Source: Lepidurus packardi
Taxonomy: Eukaryota > Arthropoda > Branchiopoda > Notostraca > Triopsidae
Assembly: GCA_023053545.1 (NCBI GenBank)
Contig: JAKZAN010000006.1
Span: 10,882,351 to 10,946,350 of the forward strand
Direction of reading: 5' to 3'
Length of the DNA: 64,000 nt
This document shows, in pieces, positions 3,925-62,345 of this stretch (position 1 is the first letter of the stretch; the number at the start of each line of letters is the position of its first letter). Below the pieces are notes generated by a model. The model made no database searches. It had not been told where the DNA came from and saw only the letters and a program-made list of their open reading frames with translations. The translations under genes were made by a program, and so were the position numbers.

Positions 3925-4110
3925 AAACTGTCACTAATAGATGGCGCCGATGTTTGTTAATGTTTCGCGAAAGCCTTGTCTAGAAAAATAAAAACAAAAT
4001 AGATGGCTAATTGTTGGTAAATTTTCTACACTTCTAAAAAGCACAACTTGTCACCACAGTTTGCTAAACCAGTACAATTTCCCAAATCAATTTCCCAAAT
4101 CAAGGAGCCT
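3925..4110 (+). repeat. Interspersed repeat family R1, copy A
   Basis: This stretch aligns by eye, with many substitutions and small indels, to the reverse complement of 29255-29440 and 54640-54825. Shared blocks include GATGGCxCxxATGTTTGTTA, AAAGCCTTG, GCTAATTG and ACAACTTGTCACCA-like segments. Three dispersed diverged copies in 64 kb indicate an old mobile-element family. I cannot assign its class, since no clear terminal repeats or target duplications were found. Confidence 0.65.
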
Positions 4111-7100
4111 AACTTTGGAAACACGATTTCTTGAAAACGTCTTGTCACATTTGAAAACAATAACAATTTGTGACATACACATTTTTTAGTACCAAGCACA
4201 ACCAATGAAAATTTTTTTAGTCCACGTATTTCACGTAGTTGAAAACTTAATTTACACACTACTAGTTTATTATGCCTGAAAAATTACACCTGTGAATATG
4301 CTTAACTTTAATGTTAGTCCATTTTGTATGAAATATACTGGTTTTCGCAAAAAGTTGTTTCGAAATTCCACGTGGTAACGGCCTATATCTAGCTAAGTTA
4401 TACGGGAGTCGCTGTTGTCTGATCAAAATGTTTTTACACAATACCCAACGTTGAAGTATTTTCTTCTTCAATAAGTCGTCCGTTACACAAGTGTAACTTT
4501 TGCTGTACAGTACCTAATTTTAGCTAACGTTGGATACATTTTGAGTTAGTCAAAGAGGTGATTTTGTATCATTGAAACTGGCGATAGTAAAACAAAAATG
4601 AGAAATTGGTACCTTGGTACGTGATACATTTTCTAATATTTATGAGAATAACTTAAATCATGGGGGAAAGCTGCAGATCTCTGCAGATGTCAGTATGGGT
4701 CGAAAACCCTCTTTCAGCCGGTATTTCTGCTCGGACTACAAGTCATAGGAAAAAAACTTGAAACCCTTCTGAAGTGCCCAGAATTCCCAGTGGATTTCTC
4801 ATAGTTTGGGTATGTGCTGCCATAGGGATTTCGCAGAAGGGCTCGGCATGGGTGGATTTAGAATGCCAAGGGTGTGGCTCCTCCTACCCCGGTTTTTAGA
4901 AGTCTCATTAAACCTTTTTATTGCTGGTCGCTGTGATCTTGGATATAATGTGTGGATGAGTTTTTGTCAAATTCTCTTAAGACTCCAGCTTCTTTCTGTG
5001 TACAAAAAAATGGCCAAAGAGGCATTTTTAGAGTTTCCGGGATGTGGGTGACTTTTCCTGGAACCGAAAAACAAGCCTGGGAAAACAGGGTGAGCCTCGT
5101 AGAGGGAGGCCGAGGGAGGCTAACGTATCAAGTTGACAATAATTTACGCTGGGTTTTCCCTCGTGAAGTCAAGGGCTTTTAATCGCATCCGCGAGCTCGG
5201 CGCTCTTCCAAATATTGATTCTAAAGTTGGGGAGTTGCTGATGCTCCTTCCGAAGCTCTGGTAACTCGTTCAGAAGCTTTAGACAAAATCGAACAAGTTT
5301 TCTCCCCGGAAGCTTACTTACAGGCACCGACCTCACTTTCTTCCCAAGTAAAAAAGTACCACCAACTTTTACAACATACATTGAAGAAACGATGACTTGG
5401 GCTCACAAACTTATCATCACCTTTTGGGGGGAGCTGGGACTAGGAAGGTTGGGGGAAGGGTGCATAGTTTCTGGTCCTGGAAGTTTTTTAAGGGTCACGG
5501 AAGTGTATGGTTTAACTTTATAAGAAAAAAAAAACTTTGCCCCCAGAAATATGCATATAATAATTTGATGTTCGCTTTCTTTCCCCTAGAAAATCCCTCT
5601 CGGACAAGGCCACGTAAGGGGATTTCTTATGGTTTTGTCCATCGTAGAAGTGGGAAGATTTCTACATAACACTGCGTATGGAATAGATTTTTCTTTCTCA
5701 TTGCTGTGGCTTGCTTTGGGGTGGCAGTAATGGCCCTTGTCTCTTATTCTGACTGGGTGTACTCTGCAGAGAAATGGAGGGGAAAAGAGAGGATGCCTAT
5801 ATCCTTTTTTGCCGTTGAGGAGAGGGAGAGATAGTGTGGATCCCTTTTCCAAGGGAGAAAAAAAGTTTTAACTTTTTCTTCAGTTTGTCTCGGCTTCACG
5901 AAAGTGCTGCAATCTATACGCTTTAGGCAAAAAGCAATTAATCTAAGCTTTTGGACTTTCGGTTATAGGGTATGTGCCAAAAAACAAGCTACGCTACTAT
6001 AACTTGGAATTACTAGCTTTCTTGCTTGGGTAGAAAAGCGAACATAAATGTAAGTGATCGGAAACGGGTCCAAATTTCTCCAATAACTGCAGCGGAACCT
6101 CCGTCATGGGTAGTCTATAATAGCACTTACAAGTACCAAAAAGACATTGCTCGAAGACTCCTATAACCTTCCTGACAAAAGAACATTACTGCGGAATCCA
6201 AGCTAGTAGTACTGTACCAAGCTCCCGTGTCCTCGACACACTCTAAGTATTGGCTACTTGAATCATCCTGTGGATGACAAAGGATGAGGGTGCTGAAACA
6301 GAGAAAGTTCCGATAGCTTCAATACAAATAGCTTCAAGACCTTTATAATGAGCTAGCTATTGAAGTTAATTATGTCGTAGCTAATGGCAATGGAGGCTTT
6401 GGGGGATCCTTTATTTCTTGTGAGCTCTTTCTATTATACAAAAGAACTGAAACAGCTTAACTCCTATTACTTGAGAAACCTGCCCAATCGCCTTGGGCAA
6501 TGGGGGTAGGAATATATCAAGCCGAATAAACGGCCCGACAGAGAAACGAGGTAAGTGCCCCATTGCTACCGCTAGGGTTGCCATTGTTCCTTCTCTTCTT
6601 TTGATACTATTAGGCCCACACAGCTTAATCTTTCATATACATCTTTATTTCCGCAGCTATATAAACGTAAATGTAATCAGTTCGAATAACTATTGGTCAG
6701 TCCAAAGAAATATTTCAGTCTTAAGGAAATAATTACAACACAAAAAATTATAGTCAATATTACTAAATCACTATTGATAGATAATATAAAGCTGGCTCCG
6801 CTATATAAAAAAAATCGGGAGAAGATAGATCATTCATCTGTATACAGGTATGTATACAGGTACCGGGAAGTGGAGAAGGAAAAACGTTGTGTGCCTGCCG
6901 CAGTCTTTTTGGTAGAGTCCATCCATAAAATATAAGATAAACCGTAAAGAATTTCTAGAATTTGCGTTTACTGTGCCGTACTGCCTGAGGATTATGGTGC
7001 TATAGGCATCTCTACTCCCACGCATAATCGATGGCGGATTCCGTGCGCACCAAGAAATTCATACTGGCAAGCTGCACGGCTGCCGATGCGTGAACTGTTT

Positions 7101-51102: not shown

Positions 51103-54100
51103 TTATTTGGTGAGCAAACCGCCAGTTCCAGGACCACTGTACGTATAACCATACGTTGGCCCGTACTGAGTATAATGCGAACTATACGAATATTCCGATC
51201 CGGGCATAACACTTCCACTTACAACGCCACTGCCTGCAAAGATTCCCAAGAGTACGGTAATTAGTCATTTCATTAATTGGAAACGTGAGGGCTATATCTT
51301 GTCCTATATCCCACCCCCTTTTCATTTACTAGATTCAAATCAAGCAAGAGAAAAGCCAAACATGCAACAACAAAAAATGCAAATGAACAAATTACGTCCT
51401 TTGGGTAAAAATGTTCTTTCTCATTTCTTTACCTGCGGCAGAGTAAGGGGCTAAACTGGGCAAGGCATAGGACATGGTGGAGCCTACTACGGGTTGCAAT
51501 AAAGTAAGAGAAGAAGGTCGGTGCGCAGAAGGCGAATCTGCCTTTTGCGGCGAAAGAGGCATCGAAGAACAATGGCTAGGCGAGTTCAATCCCGTAGGGG
51601 GCGTGGCCATTCCTCCAGCTCCGGCTCCGGCCACCATGTGCGTAAGATCTGCGTGCGGGAGGTGAGGATGCGTGTTGGTGCTGGGACATGGCTGACCTGA
51701 GACGGGCGTTCCGGGGAGCGGAGATGAGTGACCCAAAGGTACCACGTAACCGCTGCCGTCTGTGTGCACAAGGACACAAGGCCATGCAACAATCAGCACA
51801 ATAATCATGTACAAATCAAGCCATATGTACACAATTTATTTTTTAAAAATAAATTAAAAGGAACTAAAAACATTCCAAACGAAAATAACTACAAAACTAG
51901 AATACTCCAGACGAACGTAAAAAAACCTTCTCAGAAAATTAAAAAAACGATGCCAAAATCAATATTAAGCGTACTGTAATGGATATTTACGATACCGGGA
52001 AGCAGGGAGAGGGAAAAAAAGCGTCGGCTTACCTTGTTGATACTGCATCGAGCTATCCACCGGGGCTAACATATGTGCCTTGATCTCTTGCATGCTGATG
52101 GGCGTCAAAGGTGTTAAGGATCCGCTGCCTATGAATTTCACACAGCAAGACAAAAACAAAAGGGGACATGCCCATCAGTCAAGAACATAAATAAAAAAGT
52201 GAGCGAAATGGAGGGATGCACTGAAATTTTGCATGCGCAGTCTTTAGAAATTATATTGAAGAAAATAATATTTAAGAAGAATTCATTTAAGAAAATAAAG
52301 TCAAAACAAATCAGAGCAAAAAGAAGAGGGCGAGCAAACAAAAAAGTGGCCAGTGCATGGCAAAACATACAAACTGAAAATGACATGGCAAAAAACCGGG
52401 CCTTACCTAGCGAGGTGCCTAGAGGTGGTGTATAAATGGCCGTACTCTGGGACTGATGGGTCATATTGCTGATGCTATCGTAAAGCGGATCACCGGAGGT
52501 AACGGACGTAACAGCTGTACTGAAGACTCCTTGGTGATCTGTCACAAAACTCGGCAAAGTGTACGGCGAGCCGCCGTTGGTTGTATTCACACTACCCAAG
52601 TCCGGTAACAATTTGGAAGAATCGTCTTTCAAAGAACTCCATTTAGATGGCCAGACCTGTCAAAGAACAAATAAGAAAAAATCTTGAATTGGGTCCGCTT
52701 GCAATTTTCAACTTTTCAAACTTCGTTTTTTTTCCCAACGGAAAGTTTCGTAACTTACGTTGTAGAGTTGGTCGGTGTTATAATGCAGTCGTTGACGCTT
52801 CAAGTCTTCTTCAGGATTGCCCGTCATTTCACGACCATCATCTATTCAGGCGAAAAGGGAAAAGTTGACTATTAAATCAGTGCAAAAAGCCACTCGATTA
52901 GTCTAATTTCCCTCAACATGGACGAAAACAAGCTGTCGCAAGATAAAATCCCCTTTCATGCTCCCTCCCCCTAGTCAAAATATAGATCGAGTTCATTTCC
53001 CTTCACCCCCTTACTTTTGTTGCACCCATTACATACGCATAAGAATCGCGGCAACACTTTTCTCTGCTGTTGCCATATAAGCTACAATCTGTCCCCTCCC
53101 CACTCAATCCTCCCCTTCCCTCACATAACACACCCAAGAGAGTGCGAGTACAAGTTGCGAGGATCGATGCATTACACTAATGTACCCAACAAGTGTCCCA
53201 ATGGGCCAACTCACATACAAAAATTTGCCCACTTAATCCCAACTTCAATTGCTTCATTAGTCTCCAACAAAAGTTTAGTAGTCTCCAACAAGTAGTTCTC
53301 CAACATAAACTGAGACTTAAAGAAAAAACAATCTATGAAAAATCTTTCGAATACCAAAGGGAAAACAACGAGTGGAAAGGATTGGGAGGTGAAAATTCAT
53401 TAGATGATTTTGGGTGGCAAGAGGCGGTTGTATATCGTGGGGGTATCACATGTCACTTGGGGTTGTATTAGCAAGTGCTCCAAATGAGCTCTCCCAACAA
53501 TTGCCCCCTCACACTCTTGGCGGGAGCTTTATCAGCTTTGGCTTGGTCCAAAAGCACCAGGAGGGAGAAGCTGAAGTGAAGGTCCTTGAAATACAATGAG
53601 GGCGGACACTAACAGACCGCCCTATTGTTTGAATAACGCGATTACCAACCCGAGGAATCAAATTCCCTCTATGTAGAGGGAATTTCCCTCTGTGTAGAGT
53701 ATCCAGGGCTCCAAAATCCTCTCCACAACTTCCCCAAAGTGGCACACAAGCAATACACAAAAGGTGTAATGATTCACGCTTCTATGCAGAGTCGTCAAAG
53801 CTCAAAAGGGCATAGAAAAGGGACCAGCCTAATCAATCACGAGGTCCGTGCATCTGCTCTACATCCCCGCAACGGAATGAAAAAGACAGTCTTCTTCTGA
53901 GGAACGTGAAGGGAAAAGAGGCTCGTGCCATTTTTGCCACCTTTGAGGTAACAGCAGAGAGGAGGCAGGAATGTTCCCACATAGCACACATGTGTGTTTG
54001 TGTGAATTTGCTGGTGTCCCTTTCGGGTAACTTTTGACTCACCAAGTTCAATACACAACACTACGCTTGCTTTTGTCGGTGGGCAAAAGCAACGAGAGAA

Positions 54101-57100
54101 AGGGGGCTGATAGCCTGGTGCGAGTTTTGGGAGTCGTTCCAATGCCTGATTTTGCAGAATGCATCGTTTGTCTGCGTCCCGTGGCTTGTAACGGACAAGC
54201 AGGGGTGTCAGTACAAAACTCCGCTACACGAACGAAGCTGCCGTTTGGTCTTACGAGTCTCAACACATGCACAATTGACACAGTTTGCAAGTATTTACAA
54301 CACACATGACTGTGTCAAAAAGCCTTTGAAGGGGAATGAACACCAGACAAAGACATCTATTCTCAGTTTCTGAAACGTGAAGGCTCTTTAAGGCTGTGAA
54401 ATTAATCTGTCATAATAGCATTGTTTACGACGGAGGGAAAATCTTTCGGACGTTTCCATCAAGGAAAACAAGTAATACACATGAAACCATAAAAACAAAT
54501 TGCCGAAACTTCAGTATAAAAAATTCTCCTTGCCTGAAATGTCAGTCATTCTAATTCCACTGAAACATTTTCTCCATTTATGTATACTGCAATTCCATAT
54601 TTTATATCCTTAAGGCTCCCGTATACCATAGCTCGGTACAGACGACTTGATTTGCCACACTGTGTTGCTACAGCAAACTTTGGTGACAAGCTGTACTTTT
54701 CAGAAGCAAAATAAGCATAGAAACTTTGCCGGCAATTAGCTATATATTCATTTTTTACTTTCTTAGGCAAGGCTTTAGCAAAAACAATAACAAACATCAG
54801 TGCCATCTGTGACTGTTTCGCATCTATAGGCTAAGGCAAACAGGAGCTTAAAACCCAGTTTACCTTGTCCATATGACTCGCATCGCATCTCTTTTCTAAC
54901 GTTCTAACCTTTGCCTAGGTGTCTTGTCGTGTCGTGCTCTTAGTTGGTTTAGTGGCATCAAAGTGATTCGTGATTTACGAGCAGTGGAATTAGGGAACGC
55001 AAGCTGAGGACGATGGTTGCCTGATGCAATTAAACGGGGTCAGAAAGGTCATTTACGGGTTGCAAAGCGTGTGCATAAGAGAGAAGCTGCGTCATCGCTC
55101 CCGGTCGGAGTCTTTTATAAAGACATCTCTTCTCCCTTTTCTGACGTCGTCGACGGCAATGGCTGGAGGGGCTGACGCTCGTCGACGACAAGCTTCGACC
55201 TCATCCGGACCTCCGGCCGTTGCGCCACGCTTGGTCGGTTACAGGCTCTCGACCTCGCCGGGTTTCCTCTCTCTCCCTCTCTTCTTCTTCTCTTTGACAT
55301 CTCGATACCCAAAACCCTGAAACTTCCCCTAGCCTCCTTAGACCTTAGTTCACAAGGAAAACAAGGCGGAGTGAAGAAAGAATAACCCGGGTACAACCCA
55401 CGTTGCGGCATAACTTTGCTTTTCGGTACCCAATGTACGGTCTATACATGAGCATAGGGTTTTCACCCTATATGCGGAAGACACCCCGGGTTGGGTCGAA
55501 GACGGAGTGCTTTTTGGTGGGGGTTAAGGGGGCCAACATTGTTAATGATGCTTTCGGACGAGAAACATCTCAATCTGGTCTACGTCACTAAATAAGTAAG
55601 GAAGTAAGAAAGAAAAAAAATGCTCTGTTGGATAGCTTCGGGAATGCGAGCAACAACGAAACAAAAAGAGAACTCACTTGGTGAGTTTACTCGCGGGCTT
55701 GTGGGGACAGACTTAATCAACGTATCTGTGGTACGGCGAATAATTTATTAACTATGGGGAGTGAGGGACACACGAGAGGGGAATACAAGTGCCTTTCGTA
55801 CTTAAAAGGAACCTGTATTTGATTAGCCTTTGCGGTATAGTGTCTCCGTTGCTTTACAGGCGTACGGGTAGCTGGAATTGTGTTGGGCTTCGAGTCTTGA
55901 ATTACAGCAACGAAGCGAGTAATTGCTAAGCAGAAATACAGTACTCTCGAAAAATTTTGGTATCAGGTTAAAAAATCTTTGGGGTTTCTTGGAAGAATAA
56001 TACCTAAACCTTCCTGACAAAACTCGGGTCTCCTTTTTAAGTAGCTCTTACTTTGGCCATAAGACATTACACAAAAGCCGGAAATGACGTTTCCTATCCG
56101 GAAAGGACTTTTCCTTGTTTTCGAGAGGCAGTTATATCTTCTTCCAAGCCCTTCTTAAAAGTAGATAATAAAAATAAATAATCCCTCGGCAGGTTTAGCT
56201 CGCACAGAAATACGATGAGAATTTGACCAGATTTGTCTACTTATTTTCATGCTGTTGCTACCAAGGTTTAAATTGGCCTGAAAGAAAGCGTACTAGCTTT
56301 AGGGAATTACATTTTATACGAAAAAAATTAAAAGAGAATCCTTTGTTCTTTCGCAGTAATACGTTCCAATTACAACGCCGGAAAGAGCGAAAAATAAAAT
56401 TTAGTGGCAGACTTACCAATATCATCTCGCTTCCGCTTAATGTTGCCGTTGGGGTCTGTTTGCGGAATGCCCAAGATTCCGTTGATGGAATAGGATCCTG
56501 GACGATGGACTGGCGAATCATGAGGATGTAGATGATGGTGATGTTGTACGTGTAAATTGTGGCCAGTCCCGTGGTTGGGTCCCATGGATGCCGCAGATCC
56601 ATGCGTAATGACAGACGTGGTCTGGGAAATTGGACTCACTGGACCCGAGTTGGAGCCGTGACCACCATGGCCGCCTACATGTTTTGCCTTTTCCGCTGCT
56701 TTGTTTCTCACAATTCTGCCAAGGACAAATTTAAAAAAAGAATCATTAAAATCGGCCTTTTCACCATAAACCTATCCTTGAAAACATCTCAAGTTTCCCC
56801 AGCGAGCCAAAAATTCCTGAAAAAAATCAATGTTAGAAGTACATGAGCGCTATTTGGGAGGCGCAGCAAGTGTAGAAAAGTCAGCGAAGACATTTGCTTG
56901 CGAGCTGTCGTCTTGTGGGTGCCCTCTGCCCTGTTTCATTCCTTTTTTTTCTTTCCTTTTCTCATTTTTTCTTTTCTTTTTTCCGATGCTCTGGTTCAGC
57001 AGCCAACCAGAACGAGAGCCCGGGACAGTTAAGGGCTCCATGAATTTCTTAAAGCTCCATACTGGAGGAAGATAGCTTCTCCGCCAATAAGAGTCCGCAG

Positions 57101-60100
57101 CGCACCGCAGAATGCAGAACACAGTATTAGAAAAGCAAAAGTCTCTTCGCAATTCCCCTCTAATTCCCCAGCCATGTCCAGACAGTCCTGTAGCGTACGT
57201 CAAGACATTGGCTTAAAATCATGCACATGATCTACCCACACGAAGGCTCTTTTGCCATTACTGCCACGAGCCTAGCTGCGTTGTTACACCCGAGACTAAC
57301 TAGAGCCCTTTCCTCGTGGCATAGATGGCCATTTCTTCACAGAGCTTTTCTTCTTTCCCCTTCCACATTCGGTTAACCAAAAATTAAGTGAAGTACAGAC
57401 TCCACGGGGTATTCAGTTACTGGTTTTACCGGGTCCACCTGCTGAACCCGTGCTTATTATTAATGAAGGTTGGTATAGTAATGATCCATTGCTGCATACT
57501 CTCCGCGTTGGACTAACAATTTGCTTGATTGACTGCATATAGCGAGTGGCCGAGTATAGGTATAGGCGAGTGGCCGAGTATAGGCGAGTATAGGTATAGC
57601 CTGTCTTGTCTTTTCATGGGTCTGCAAAGATAATTCAGGTACCACATCAAAGCGACTAACTTACTACAGTCCTTTATAGACTTATATGAATGGACGTCCC
57701 TTTGCGCAGAACCTATAAAACACCCCAGGTTTTGCACTGAGGCGAGCCTTTTAAGATCTCAAGTAATGCAGTCCTATGGGAGGAGGCAAAGTCATTATCA
57801 TGGCACACGAAAGGCCTAAATTTATTGTTTACAAGGAAAATCCAAGCGAATCTGCGTGGCTGTGGCAGTGTGGCTGCATGTCTGTGCGTGCTGCAAGGAA
57901 GCAGTCCAACAAATAAGCTTCGATACAAAAACCGGTGTTGCTGATCCTCTAATTGAATAAAGCGCATCTTTCCATCGCCACGTCACGCACCAGGGTGGCT
58001 TTCGCTTCCTTGCTCTATACAATTGAGCCTTATCATCCCTTGTTTCCCTTCTGCTGCAGAATACCGAATGCTTCCCTCAAAACCACAGACCGCTGACTTG
58101 AAATCCTCTAACGCTAAAAAATAACAACTAATTTACCTTGTAGTGAAAGTATCCTTCTGACCGATTTAGAATTCCCGGACCAAAATCTTTTTAAATTAAG
58201 ATTTTTACTGAAGACTACGAAAAGATGTTGAAGATATTGAAGACATGAGAAGGTCCTTTCTTTCCTGATTTGACACAAAACACAATGTATGCTTTATCTG
58301 CTTCTGACTGATTTTCTTCCTGTAGTTCCTAAGATCTAAAGTGAAAAAAAAGTTCGCCGAAGAGACTGGGAAGTGAAAAGAAGGAAAGTCACGGGTCTCG
58401 TGTTTTCCATGGCACGGTTGTTTGCGCATCAAAACACGGGGAACGCCTTTCTGATCAATAAGTCTCAGCTTCCACGTGATTGGAAGACCATGTCGACTTT
58501 ACAAGCTCCCTGCAAGTTCCAAAAAAAGGCCAAGTGCACAGCGCCAAGGAAAAGGACAAGCCAAGAAGCTTAAATAGCTCGGACTCGTGGAAGACGAGAA
58601 AAACACCGGAAAATCCCCTTTCGCGTGTGTGTGTCCCCAACTTCTCCCCACGTGAGGGTCTAAACATTGATTGAAATCTCAGTCCAGCGGAGTGGAAGTG
58701 CGCTGAGGGCGGCAATCGAGCTAATTTCAAGCAATCCCCCTCGTAATGCCGCTATCATTTGCCTGACACATGGCAGCAGTTGAGCCTCGATTGGGGGAAT
58801 ACACACCTCCCAGGCTGAATGAATTCCCCGAGTATCAAAAGGGGTTGTTTAAAAGTAAAAGAGGAAAATTTGGCAAGTTCTCTCCCTTTTTCAGGCTGGC
58901 ATAGGTACAGAAGACCCAATCGAGAGAATCTTGCTCTCTTCTTGCTCTCCTGTGGGGGTCCCATGTGCTACTCTTACACGAAAGAGGCTCGGCGGGACCA
59001 TCTAGGCCCATTGTAGCCGGAGTTGTTCCCAATTGAAAGGAGTAGACGGCATTACAACGTTGTTGGGGTCCGATCTTTGCGTCTCCAGGGACGCGTTGAC
59101 ACAGACACAGCCTCCCCAATCTCTCCGCGCTAAGCAAATGTGGTCATTTCCATGCAAAACTCCCTCTCTCTGTTCTACTCTGTCCGACGAGCGACGCTCA
59201 CGCCCGTAAAAGAACACAAAGAAACATCCCAAAGAAATCTGCAATCTCTTGGTTGTTTTGGCCATCGTTTATACCTGTTGATAGAGCTGACACTGGGGAC
59301 GTTTTCTTGATTGCAGATGCCTTCTGCCAACAATCGGTCTCGGATCTCCCATGCGAACATGGTCGGATTTTCGCGTTTATAGGCGGCAATGGCGTCCACC
59401 ACATGTGGCGTGGCCACTTTAGGTTTGCTGCCTCCGATCACTCCAGCTTTGAAGCTCCCCGTCTCATAATACCTAGAAACACAAACACGGACAAAGAAAA
59501 GAAGCCCCAAATAAACTTTAATTCCTCCTGAAATCCAATCTAACATTTCTTTGCAAATGAAGAGTTTCATGCAAGGTATACATTAGAAGATTACGAACAT
59601 AGCCAAAAAAATCTATATAAAAAATGGAGATCAGCCCATAAAAATGATCCACATTAATATGACTTTGGTGTATGATGATGACTGCATCTTCGGGTCCATT
59701 ATGCAGCCCATCAGAACCGCATCCACGAGCCATACATCATCCTCGGGAGATATTATGGAGGGAAACTATGTTTTTTCTCCATTTTTCTTCGCTTCCCACC
59801 CCTGTTTTTTAGGGGGAAATATAAGAACTCCGGAAAACTTACTTTTCTTTGCCTCGACCGTGTGGCAAAGAACATTTGGACCAACACCGCTGACATGTTG
59901 CTGGTTGTTGCTAGAGTGCTTTCGCATTTGCATTTACATAACAAAAGACAATGTTAAGGAACAACTCTCGCGTCTACCCGACTCAAAAAGGAGGAAAGAG
60001 GGAGCCGGGAACGAAATTGGCTTATTCCTAAATTCTGCTGGGTCTTGTTGCACAACAAACCTACTCGGAACGATTTATGCGCGCTATGTTCTAAACTAAT

Positions 60101-62345
60101 ACGTACAAAGTGGGCATACTGCTTTGCACTTGATTAAAGCGGTTAGGAATCGGATTTCCTGCGTTATGGCTACTAAAAAAACTCGACTAGGAGAATCTGG
60201 CTAATAAAAAAAAGACACAGATCCTCCCCTGATTTAATACGTTCGACGGTTGGGGTCGCGTATACGACGCTATGACGAGCTTCGGCTGGTACTACTGTTT
60301 TATGACACGTTGCAATGCAGCGATGAGGTCTGACGACTCCCGACTCGTCCGGAAATGCTTAAAAAAACAAGAGGGATACCTCTTTCTGTCTTTTTTGTTT
60401 TTTAAGATGCACAGGCCGGATCTTCATTTTTTTTCCTATTCCTTTCTCTCTTTCCCCTCTTGCGCTCGTATATACTTCCTCGCAGTATATATAAACATAA
60501 AGAGTATTTCCCTGGCTCGTTCCCTCCCAACGTTATGGCCCTTTTTGGTTTCTAAATGCAAATCTCATGTCCAAAGCCACCGAGAAGAAGTGTGCCGCGG
60601 ATTTCCGTAACGGATTATTCCCGGTGTCGCAGGAACTTACGCATTGATGGGGCCTTATACATTTATGATTATGACCGACGAGTGGTGGATATGTGGCACA
60701 GGATCAGGGGTGAGGGTTTGAATGAAATGCATAACAAGGTTATTTCTTTTTTTTATCGAAACCGAATAAACAAAAAAAATACCATCCCAGGGTTAGTTCA
60801 AGAGAAAATCATGGCACAAAAAATCCCATTGATGGAAGAGGCAATTGGTCAAAGATTCCGCGGACATTGGTGGTTGTTGTTAAATCGGTTTTACCTGCCC
60901 AAAATTTTAGACACGCAGCCATGGGAAATGAGCAGTTGTCTGGAAATGTCGCAGGGCCTGACCCCTTGGCAGGCAAGGCCAACAATTTGCTGGCGGATGT
61001 GATCAGGTAAAGGTCTTCCATTGACGTAAAGTCCGCCGTGTTGATTGACACCATCTCGGCCTACATTGGGTTGTTGGGTTGCAGAAACAACGACGGTGGG
61101 CAAGCAAGGGGACAGACAAAAACCACACACAGAAAAACAACAAAAAAGGGTGGATTAGAAAAACCAGTGCATCCCCCCTCACCTGGATAAAATCTTGGAG
61201 ACGCAGCCGTGGGAGACGCGAAGTTGGCGGGAAATGTCACACGGTCGCACCCCGTTGTGCGCCAATTCCACGATGCGTTGTCGCACCAGGTCCGGTAATG
61301 GGCGGCCGTTCACGAACACGCCCCCGAGTTGGTTAACGCCCCCGTGGCCTGTAAGAGGAACACCTACGGTGGGTGCTACTGCTATCCAACATTTCTCGCC
61401 AAAATAAATTTGGACTTGCTAACATTACGCTAATCTTTCCAAACTAAGGTTTTTCGTTTACTCTTAAAAACTTGGGTGCAAATTGAAAACAAACAAAAAT
61501 ACCCCAAATGTCCGAAAAGGAGATTTGGGCTCAACTGAAAAACAAAACAAACAAAAAAACTGTGCCTAAGCTTTTCAATACTGTGCGCCATGCTCTTTTT
61601 TAAGTTTTGTTGGGGGAAATGCGTCGCCCACGGTTGAATCGTGCTCAAGGTGGATCAATCCGAACACCAACTTCCATACAGCTATAATACCACACATATT
61701 TTTCCCTTTCCCCAAATATCCCGGAAGCGTTAGTTAAACCAAAATAAAACCACGTTAGATCATAGAGGTCCTTTTGCAAAGAAACACAAAAGTTGATGTT
61801 TGGATTGAATCTAAATAACATTGTGCTCATCTAACAATTTCAACGAGGCACCTTTTCAAGAAACACAAAGAAAAGATAGAAACAAAGGTGCGTCGTCAAA
61901 GGAAAAATAGTCTGCCCAATCCAGCCAATGTAAATCACAGCTGACTAACTGATGACAGGCCACAAGTCACACAAGTGCCGTTGTCAAACTCATTTCTTTG
62001 GGCTTTCCGCCCCGTCTTTGGTCTAGTACTCTGAATTGTTTAATTGTCATTGCCAAACCTAGGGCTTTCCTGTTTAAGACAAGGGAAAGTCGACTCACAA
62101 AGGGCGGCTTAGTAGCTCTCAAATTTGTAGATGTGAAAGAATCTGCTAAATGAACAGACTTTTACTGATACTAAGCTACTAAGCCCCCTCCTTGACCGGC
62201 GGAAAGCCCGTCCTGAGTTTTAAGAAAGTCTAATGTCGCCCGTCAAGTTTAGCACATAAAGTCATAGATATGGTTCTCACTCACTCTTACAAGTGTAATA
62301 TTCCATCATGTTCTGATTGTATCGATAAGCAGTCGTCAAATCCAT
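51103..62345 (-). CDS. Pax2/5/8: Pax2/5/8 paired-domain transcription factor
   Basis: This is the arthropod Pax2/5/8 (fly shaven/sparkling) homologue, a nuclear DNA-binding regulator of eye, sensory-organ and nervous-system development in known animals. Exons on the minus strand: 62291-62345, 61183-61348 (2a) or 60895-61060 (2b), 59275-59472, 56417-56715, 52759-52841, 52407-52656, 52033-52128, 51433-51759 and 51103-51233. Every junction is in phase and gives 534 residues with either exon 2. The paired domain spans about residues 19-144. Its RED half in exon 3 has [13 protein letters not shown] and [17 protein letters not shown], diagnostic for Pax2/5/8 rather than Pax6. The octapeptide YSINGILGI is at 215-223, followed by KRKRDD. 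A His-rich stretch precedes it. The C-terminus is rich in Ser, Pro, Gly and Tyr, like the family's transactivation region. I see no clear partial homeodomain. Exon 1 has MDLTTAYRY as start. Total span is 11.2 kb with long introns. Confidence 0.95.
52842..56416 (-). other. Pax intron 4
   Basis: This is a 3.6 kb intron with no additional exon found. It contains repeat R1 copy C, a short hairpin at 53662-53683 and a GC-rich patch at about 55090-55330. On the minus strand TATAAAAG lies near 55110-55120. An internal promoter there is only a possibility. Confidence 0.45.
54640..54825 (-). repeat. Interspersed repeat family R1, copy C
   Basis: This is the closest relative of copy B at 29255-29440, within Pax intron 4. 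The minus strand is open for 86 codons here, but the frame is broken by stops in copies A and B, so coding is not supported by the family. Confidence 0.7.
56716..59274 (-). other. Pax intron 3
   Basis: This is 2.6 kb with no further paired-domain or octapeptide-like exon. Apart from the tandem repeat at 57535-57602 I see nothing definite. Confidence 0.45.
57535..57602. repeat. Short tandem repeat (GCGAGTGGCCGAGTATAG)
   Basis: Two to three copies of an 18-24 base unit, with internal GTATAG variation, in Pax intron 3. Confidence 0.8.
59473..60894 (-). other. Pax intron between exon 2b and exon 3
   Basis: This is 1.4 kb. I searched for a third PAI-like exon on the minus strand and found none. 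Any element controlling the 2a/2b choice could lie here or in the 122-base spacer at 61061-61182. Confidence 0.45.
60895..61060 (-). other. Pax2/5/8: Pax exon 2b: variant PAI half of paired domain
   Basis: This exon is also 166 bases, with acceptor CCCAATGTAG and donor CAG|GTAAAA, and the same entry and exit phases as 2a. It lies 122 bases downstream. It reads [18 protein letters not shown] and [18 protein letters not shown], about 41 of 55 residues identical to 2a. The frame is fully open and the changes are mostly outside the fold core, so it looks functional and selected. Notable changes are Leu8 to His, Arg25 to Gln, Glu28 to Gly, His31 to Cys and Arg44 to Leu. The acceptor lies in a CA-rich (ACCCAACAACCCAAT) rather than pyrimidine-rich context, suggesting regulated use. 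Confidence 0.93.
61183..61348 (-). other. Pax2/5/8: Pax exon 2a: canonical PAI half of paired domain
   Basis: This exon is 166 bases, with acceptor CTCTTACAG and donor CAG|GTGAGG. It begins in phase 1 and ends in phase 2. The translation follows the Pax2/5/8 consensus ([18 protein letters not shown], then [18 protein letters not shown]). Paired-domain positions 42, 44 and 47 are Gln, Arg and His, the Pax5-type set. The acceptor has a better pyrimidine tract than that of exon 2b. Confidence 0.95.
62000..62209. repeat. Nested inverted repeats in Pax intron 1
   Basis: GGGCTTTCCGCC (62000-62011) pairs with GGCGGAAAGCCC (62198-62209). Inside it, GGCTTAGTAGCT (62106-62117) pairs with AGCTACTAAGCC (62174-62185). 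The two perfect pairs nest but are spaced asymmetrically (94 and 12 bases between the outer and inner arms). It could be a decayed MITE or an RNA hairpin in the intron just upstream of the duplicated exons. Confidence 0.6.

Follow-up and report, generated by a model that had tools for sequence, protein, structure and literature searches.

Mutually exclusive exons that alter the DNA-binding domain of a developmental factor are already known. Exons 18 and 18b of FOXP1 (FOXP1-ES) exclude each other, keep the frame and change the preferred motif (PMC11701043). In Drosophila serpent, exons 4A and 4B, which likewise stem from an arthropod exon duplication, are mutually exclusive and swap a DNA-binding module (PMC8844375). 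Splicing also alters the PAI half of the paired domain in Pax6(5a), Pax8(S), medaka Pax2.1(2a+), and Pax2.2(ext24+); in PMC4488758, the chordate Pax2/5/8 paired-domain events consist of insertions, extensions or a deletion, and PAI binding is expected to be lost when residues are inserted into the recognition helix of that half. Here we describe a 64,000-nucleotide stretch of the genome of the tadpole shrimp Lepidurus packardi (hereafter called the window), the minus strand of which carries one Pax2/5/8 gene with two tandem exons, 2a and 2b, each encoding an intact PAI half.

The present case differs from those described so far in several respects. FOXP1 is a mammalian forkhead gene in which part of one domain is exchanged, whereas in the crustacean gene the swap takes in a complete half, with its helix-turn-helix, of a domain made of two parts, with predicted consequences for binding. 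Serpent 4B lacks a zinc finger, and the choice is therefore between loss and presence, whereas in the present gene either exon encodes an intact PAI half. The Pax6(5a), Pax8(S), and medaka forms insert residues (in medaka within helix 3 or toward its end), which had been stated in an earlier reading of the window, made from the letters alone (the sequence-only reading), and agrees with PMC4488758, a study of Pax2/5/8 splicing; here a paralogous exon would replace the whole half, and since 2a and 2b are equal in length, no residues are inserted. A literature search, which did not extend to most subscription journals, brought up no account of PAI or RED halves being exchanged in Pax genes. The present case has an unusual target, an apparent great age and a mirror image in decapods.

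From this one Pax2/5/8 gene of a branchiopod, two types of transcription factor very probably arise, exons 2a and 2b being spliced in a mutually exclusive way. This layout, which the sequence-only reading had proposed, is supported by the anatomy of the exons and by a pair of Artemia isoforms differing in this exon alone. Either 2a or 2b would supply residues 2–55 of the paired domain, that is, the N-terminal hairpin region and the helix-turn-helix of the PAI half, while exon 3 would supply the RED half common to both forms.

Organization of the Pax2/5/8 Gene

The last 13 kb of the window, read on the minus strand, were modeled from homology and splice sites as one Pax2/5/8 gene with nine coding positions (1, 2a/2b, and 3–9):

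62285..62345, minus strand, exon 1, with a phase-1 exit and two in-frame donors, at 62291 (CTT/GTAAGA) and 62285 (AGA/GTGAGT)
61183..61348, minus strand, exon 2a, the canonical PAI half (paired-domain residues 2–55), 166 nt, phase 1 in and phase 2 out
61061..61182, minus strand, the intron between 2a and 2b, 122 nt
60895..61060, minus strand, exon 2b, the alternative PAI half, 166 nt, phase 1 in and phase 2 out
59275..59472, minus strand, exon 3, the RED half, 198 nt, phase 2 in and out
56417..56715, minus strand, exon 4, containing the octapeptide YSINGILG
52759..52841, minus strand, exon 5
52407..52656, minus strand, exon 6
52033..52128, minus strand, exon 7
51433..51759, minus strand, exon 8
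51103..51233, minus strand, exon 9, ending in a stop codon at 51103

Exon 1 had initially been given a single end at 62291; this donor is usable, but a second one lies 6 nt away at 62285, and either can be used in frame. The form ending at 62285 (...CKS) is matched by Artemia P0010 (...YYTCKS-RDG) and Daphnia P0246 (...YYTCK-M), and the form ending at 62291 (...YYTC-HGG) by decapod, amphipod, and barnacle proteins. Joined to donor 62291, both 2a and 2b give a 534-amino-acid protein with a single terminal stop and none internal, which bears out the proposal that both exons fit between exon 1 and exon 3.

Two class marks of Pax2/5/8 are present: the paired domain is nearest to those of Pax5 and Pax8 (2a plus exon 3 has Pax5 as its best PDB match, E 6e-71, followed by Pax8, among four matches), and exon 4 carries an octapeptide of the type YSINGILG. 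As regards a third mark of the class, a partial homeodomain, no match to the homeodomain family was obtained with the frames of exons 4 and 6 or with the Artemia proteins P0010 and P0243. The RED half is 99% identical to that of Daphnia magna, and the gene shares with Daphnia a short C-terminal end unlike that of Artemia, an anostracan; both features point to a phyllopod branchiopod.

Two further features of the gene were observed. About 14 kb past the end of the window, on the minus strand (L018, ~4105–4207), lies an alternative first coding exon (MITMDVNGPHH...EEPKKK) with a phase-1 donor, corresponding to the second start of the Artemia and Daphnia proteins; it could supply either PAI exon. 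A candidate 15-nt extension at the 5' end of exon 2a (61349..61363, minus strand), reached via an upstream in-frame acceptor, would add VPLTG; extra residues also occur at this site in isoforms of Artemia (SFAG) and Daphnia (MYHSSGTG), and use of the upstream acceptor is possible.

Sequence Conservation of Exons 2a and 2b

The two exons of 166 bases, with entry phase 1 and exit phase 2, lie where the sequence-only reading had placed them, and are flanked by canonical AG and GT. They are identical at 108/166 nucleotides (65%) and at 40/54 residues of full codons, in keeping with the protein identity of about 75% previously estimated. In view of the low nucleotide identity, with a synonymous divergence (dS) not computable by NG86, a recent duplication of the assembly was rejected. 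The nucleotide differences are distributed 10/10/38 over the three codon positions (chi-square p = 1.3e-6), and coding constraint has therefore acted; the nonsynonymous divergence (dN) amounts to 0.22. None of 20,000 copies of 2a randomly mutated at 58 of their 162 bases retained 40 of the 54 residues (the maximum was 32), and 4,279 of them were free of stops. Because of this distribution and of the failure of any simulated copy to retain 40 residues, we conclude that 2b is an old coding exon kept by selection.

The Pfam PAX family recognizes both frames, with scores of 108.1 bits for 2a and 90.6 bits for 2b; with exon 3 included, the scores rise to 238.6 and 221.5 bits, respectively, over the full length of the domain. 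Inclusion of both exons (1-2a-2b-3) or of neither (1-3) shifts the frame and leads to an early stop, which in the case of double inclusion falls inside exon 2b.

Isoforms in Artemia

Exon 2b recurs in another branchiopod, Artemia franciscana. Its proteins P0011 (isoform X8) and P0243 (QYM36_000817) both consist of 448 amino acids and differ at 16 positions, all within residues 35–88 and all falling in the PAI exon, P0011 carrying the 2b orthologue and P0243 the 2a sequence. The same 16 differences separate P0010 from P0241 and P0242, along with a 4-residue insertion before the PAI half and a later missing segment. In both P0010 and P0011, a 55-residue orthologue of 2b stands in place of the 2a sequence. 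The two have different starts (...MDLTAAAYRYNQ... in P0010, MISMEV...KKK in P0011), and the same two starts are found with 2a in P0241/P0242 and in P0243, respectively; this is the pattern of a putative cassette swap independent of promoter choice. All five Artemia proteins are listed on contigs of identical size (51,680,706). The 2a sequence of the window and that of Artemia (P0242) are identical at 55/55 residues, and the 2b sequences at 44/55. Given the 2a/2b isoform pair and the presence of both versions with both first exons, 2b looks old within Branchiopoda, with splicing predicted to be mutually exclusive.

In a search made with the 2b region (best 120 of 5,904 matches), P0010 and P0011 ranked immediately after nine top rows containing several whole or partial paired-domain copies, which are uninformative about 2b. 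The marks of 2b, NQHGG and [EG]LAC[QN]G, were present in 2 of the 328 proteins collected, both of them Artemia 2b forms, and among the 49 proteins picked as crustacean or unnamed, the same two carry 2b and 47 carry 2a. An alignment-based search for relatives was considered over the best 120 of 6,642 matches, and no 2b-marked protein occurred among the best 120 of 301 matches of a search of short open reading frames; proteins of about 99 to 293 amino acids fell between the ranges these searches covered. Relatives of 2b were not found in collections of virus and prokaryote contigs, which bear little on animals because of their contents.

Origin of Exon 2b

Some residues common to both 2b sequences are rare in other PAI halves. 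The two Artemia 2b forms were removed first, and 321 of the remaining 326 proteins furnished 90 distinct PAI sequences for comparison; this sample was recruited by 2b- or Artemia-based queries and is not random. R2, D3, and H8 occur in none of the 90 (position 8 being L in 90/90), C31 in one, Y12 in 4, Q25 in 10 and L11 in 11. In addition, 2b has Q32 and G55, as do Limulus and human Pax5, where 2a of the window, Artemia, Daphnia magna, and the fly has N32 and S55.

In a tree of 30 PAI sequences over 55 columns, the 2b sequences of the window and Artemia group together at 96/91, the columns being few and the bootstrap not having settled. In the approximately unbiased (AU) test, a topology that joins the two exons of the window directly to each other was rejected (p = 0.029), and one with 2b beside the Poxn rows was not (p = 0.187).

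Predicted DNA-Binding Properties

The paired domain was numbered on the assumption that N14-G15 provides the anchor. We take R16, S46, H47, G48, C49, S51, and K52 to be the DNA-contact residues of the PAI half, and positions 42, 44, and 47 to be those separating Pax5-type from Pax6-type recognition. All seven presumed contact residues are unchanged in both 2b exons. In 36 columns, more than 95% of the 90 sequences agree; of these columns, the window 2b departs at three (8, 12, and 45) and the Artemia 2b at four (8, 12, 40, and 50). The window 2b has L44 and I45; the Artemia 2b has L42, R44, and I50. Because L8 is changed, together with one of positions 42 and 44, the 2b protein may read DNA differently or more weakly while retaining the PAI fold, and if positions 42, 44, and 47 do separate the two types of recognition, a shift in its preference is to be expected.

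As modeled, the Artemia 2b isoform contains three PAI helices (57–68, 73–80, and 84–97), with predicted local distance difference test scores (pLDDT) of 75–93 in means over blocks of 10 residues. Its best solved matches are 6pax, 1k78, 2k27, and 1pdn (Pax6, Pax5, Pax8, and Prd); these matches of a predicted structure are expected from the sequence and hence provide no independent proof.

Splicing Signals and Alternative Explanations

Exclusivity in L. packardi, which we infer, would be partly enforced by the early stops arising upon double or zero inclusion. It may also be aided by the sole branch-point consensus of 2b: the intron between 2a and 2b is free of AG over the 115 nt preceding the 2b acceptor, and the only YTNAY motif in this stretch is CTAAT at 61158–61154, whose branch A lies 28 nt beyond the 2a donor and 94 nt before 2b. 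In the alpha-tropomyosin gene, a branch point near the upstream donor prevents the mutually exclusive exons 2 and 3 from being joined; the present likeness consists of a consensus motif and its distances. A steric block, the candidate branch point being too near the 2a donor for 2a to be joined to 2b, is a tentative and on balance rather doubtful explanation, because two other introns have AG-free stretches of 90 nt (intron 6–7) and 102 nt (intron 7–8) and arthropods splice short introns.

The fact that long AG-free stretches are not peculiar to this intron is one of several observations weighing against the mutually exclusive use of a functional 2b. The AG-free interior was also compared with what the base composition of the intron alone would give, and the chance was 0.026. 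The 2b acceptor is weak, with one T and eight pyrimidines in 17 positions (–20 to –4), the fewest pyrimidines among the nine main acceptors of the gene. An inverted-repeat search revealed no convincing RNA pairing between introns: of five pairs, three were A/T-rich runs, and an A/T-rich pair (I5) connects the 2a–2b intron with the intron following 2b. The Artemia isoforms are database gene models. Four Daphnia cluster representatives (P0246–P0249) carry 2a only; they stand for 13, 4, 1, and 18 sequences, respectively, in clusters at 90% identity, so that 2b forms may be hidden there. In the Artemia 2b model, the hairpin region has a pLDDT below 50, the mean over the whole model is 52.9, and the predicted template modeling score is 0.28. 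Lastly, the protein nearest to the window 2b by identity is not the Artemia 2b (44/55) but a metagenome protein, P0118 (45/55), which joins the 2b pair at 94/75 in the PAI tree. This separate Pax2/5/8-like protein has L8 and lacks R2, D3, H8, and C31; its likeness to 2b may reflect convergence or deep kinship. P0118 and exon 2b of the window share a stretch of 19 protein letters.

Both donors had been called good in the sequence-only reading, which holds for 2a (score 11.3), but that of 2b is only moderate (7.2), on a generic scoring matrix.

As regards the function of 2b, the main rival explanation is that a weakened PAI half lets the RED half dominate. More broadly, 2b might act as a switch-off, either as a dominant-negative or RED-only binder or through an unstable message containing both exons, and thus set the dose of the factor and not new targets. 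The stop within exon 2b upon double inclusion is consistent with this, as is H8, which replaces the L of the 90 other PAI sequences and could weaken a DNA contact; insertions into the recognition helix are likewise expected to abolish PAI binding (PMC4488758). The presumed contact residues R16, S46, H47, G48, C49, S51, and K52 are nevertheless kept in both 2b sequences, and a dead domain would need no such conservation as is seen in the 36 columns, where the departures are few (three and four). We therefore regard this explanation as possible but less probable than a form which binds.

It is much less likely that 2b is a degenerating or seldom used copy without function, the splicing of which is mere noise. 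Its weak acceptor, its absence from the four Daphnia representatives and its faster evolution than that of 2a (44/55 against 55/55 residues identical between the window and Artemia) would fit this explanation, but the differences between 2a and 2b are concentrated at third codon positions, 44 of the 55 residues have been retained between the two species, the frame is open and the phases fit in the window, and intact 2b isoforms are modeled in Artemia. Capture of 2b from another Pax gene such as Poxn, instead of copying from 2a, is slightly less likely still: L44 of the window 2b is Poxn-like, and the AU test rejects 2a and 2b as immediate sisters and does not reject a Poxn grouping, but the free tree, which has 55 columns only, places 2b elsewhere, the Artemia 2b has R44, and the position and phase of 2b equal those of the neighboring exon.

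The RED Exon of Decapods

Malacostracans appear to swap the other half, RED, of the same paired domain, as judged from the differences between decapod isoforms and from the types seen in the RED tree. These isoforms are gene models. Between P0261 and P0269 of Macrobrachium rosenbergii there are 13 differences in the RED exon and one missing 36-residue segment; in Cherax, the pairs P0271/P0278 and P0266/P0254 each show 14 RED differences, along with other isoform differences. The exchanged versions of exon 3 are characterized by "SIRPG" and "SYKAG", and Petrolisthes P0012 contains both RED versions in tandem. In a tree of 26 rows and 68 columns, the "SIRPG" type (five decapod rows, Hyalella, and Meganyctiphanes) groups at 93/94 and sides with Limulus, a millipede, a tardigrade, a snail, and a fish; the "SYKAG" type forms a group with 97/92 and falls on the other side, with insects, a barnacle, and the branchiopods; the split between the two sides has moderate support (89/92).

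Crustacean Pax2/5/8 might accordingly be viewed as a DNA reader with two interchangeable slots, branchiopods swapping PAI and malacostracans RED, the duplicates of which may date from the pancrustacean stem, copies having been lost differently from lineage to lineage. This speculative picture, which we consider rather unlikely, is hinted at by Q32 and G55 of 2b and by the placement of the "SIRPG" type.

Other Pax Genes of the Genome

The assembly comprises 108,557,554 bases in 344 contigs, and 17 stretches match the PAX family, these scans scoring the best candidates only. In this 108.6-Mb genome, one Pax2/5/8 locus and one copy of 2b were found, and the idea of a second Pax2/5/8 gene was rejected. 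No further 2b copy was detected in the genome, the next best match being a Poxn-like exon at 76%; this separate Poxn-like gene led us to reject the idea that 2b is a remnant of a lost Poxn. Eight other places among the PAX matches were compared by tblastn with the exons of the window, and as we read their sequences, they hold genes similar to Pax3/7 (three), Pax6 (two), eyegone, Poxn, and Pax1/9 (one each); each gave one PAI match within the stretches fetched, where no second PAI exon was found.

Some of these genes show features of their own. Two of the Pax3/7-like genes (L013 and L014; C6 near 761k and 775k) lie 14 kb apart, and their paired domains have an apparent insertion of about 20–40 residues between the linker and the RED half, which would seem unusual for such a conserved domain. 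The Poxn-like gene (L015; C5 near 11.81 Mb) has a long insertion with HHHH in the linker between PAI and RED. The two Pax6-like genes (L009 and L010; C6 near 7.38 and 7.36 Mb) are about 26 kb apart and in opposite orientation.

Biological Significance

The pleiotropy of developmental factors is commonly considered too great for their DNA-binding domains to change, and gene duplication is the usual escape from this constraint. At the only Pax2/5/8 locus found in L. packardi, one conserved regulator seems to hold a second, separately evolving DNA-reading half, chosen by splicing. This raises the questions of what the PAI half alone decides in vivo on Pax targets, and in what way exon duplication can substitute for gene duplication in the evolution of transcription factors. 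Since Artemia, which carries both exons, is a laboratory animal, both questions could be tested there.

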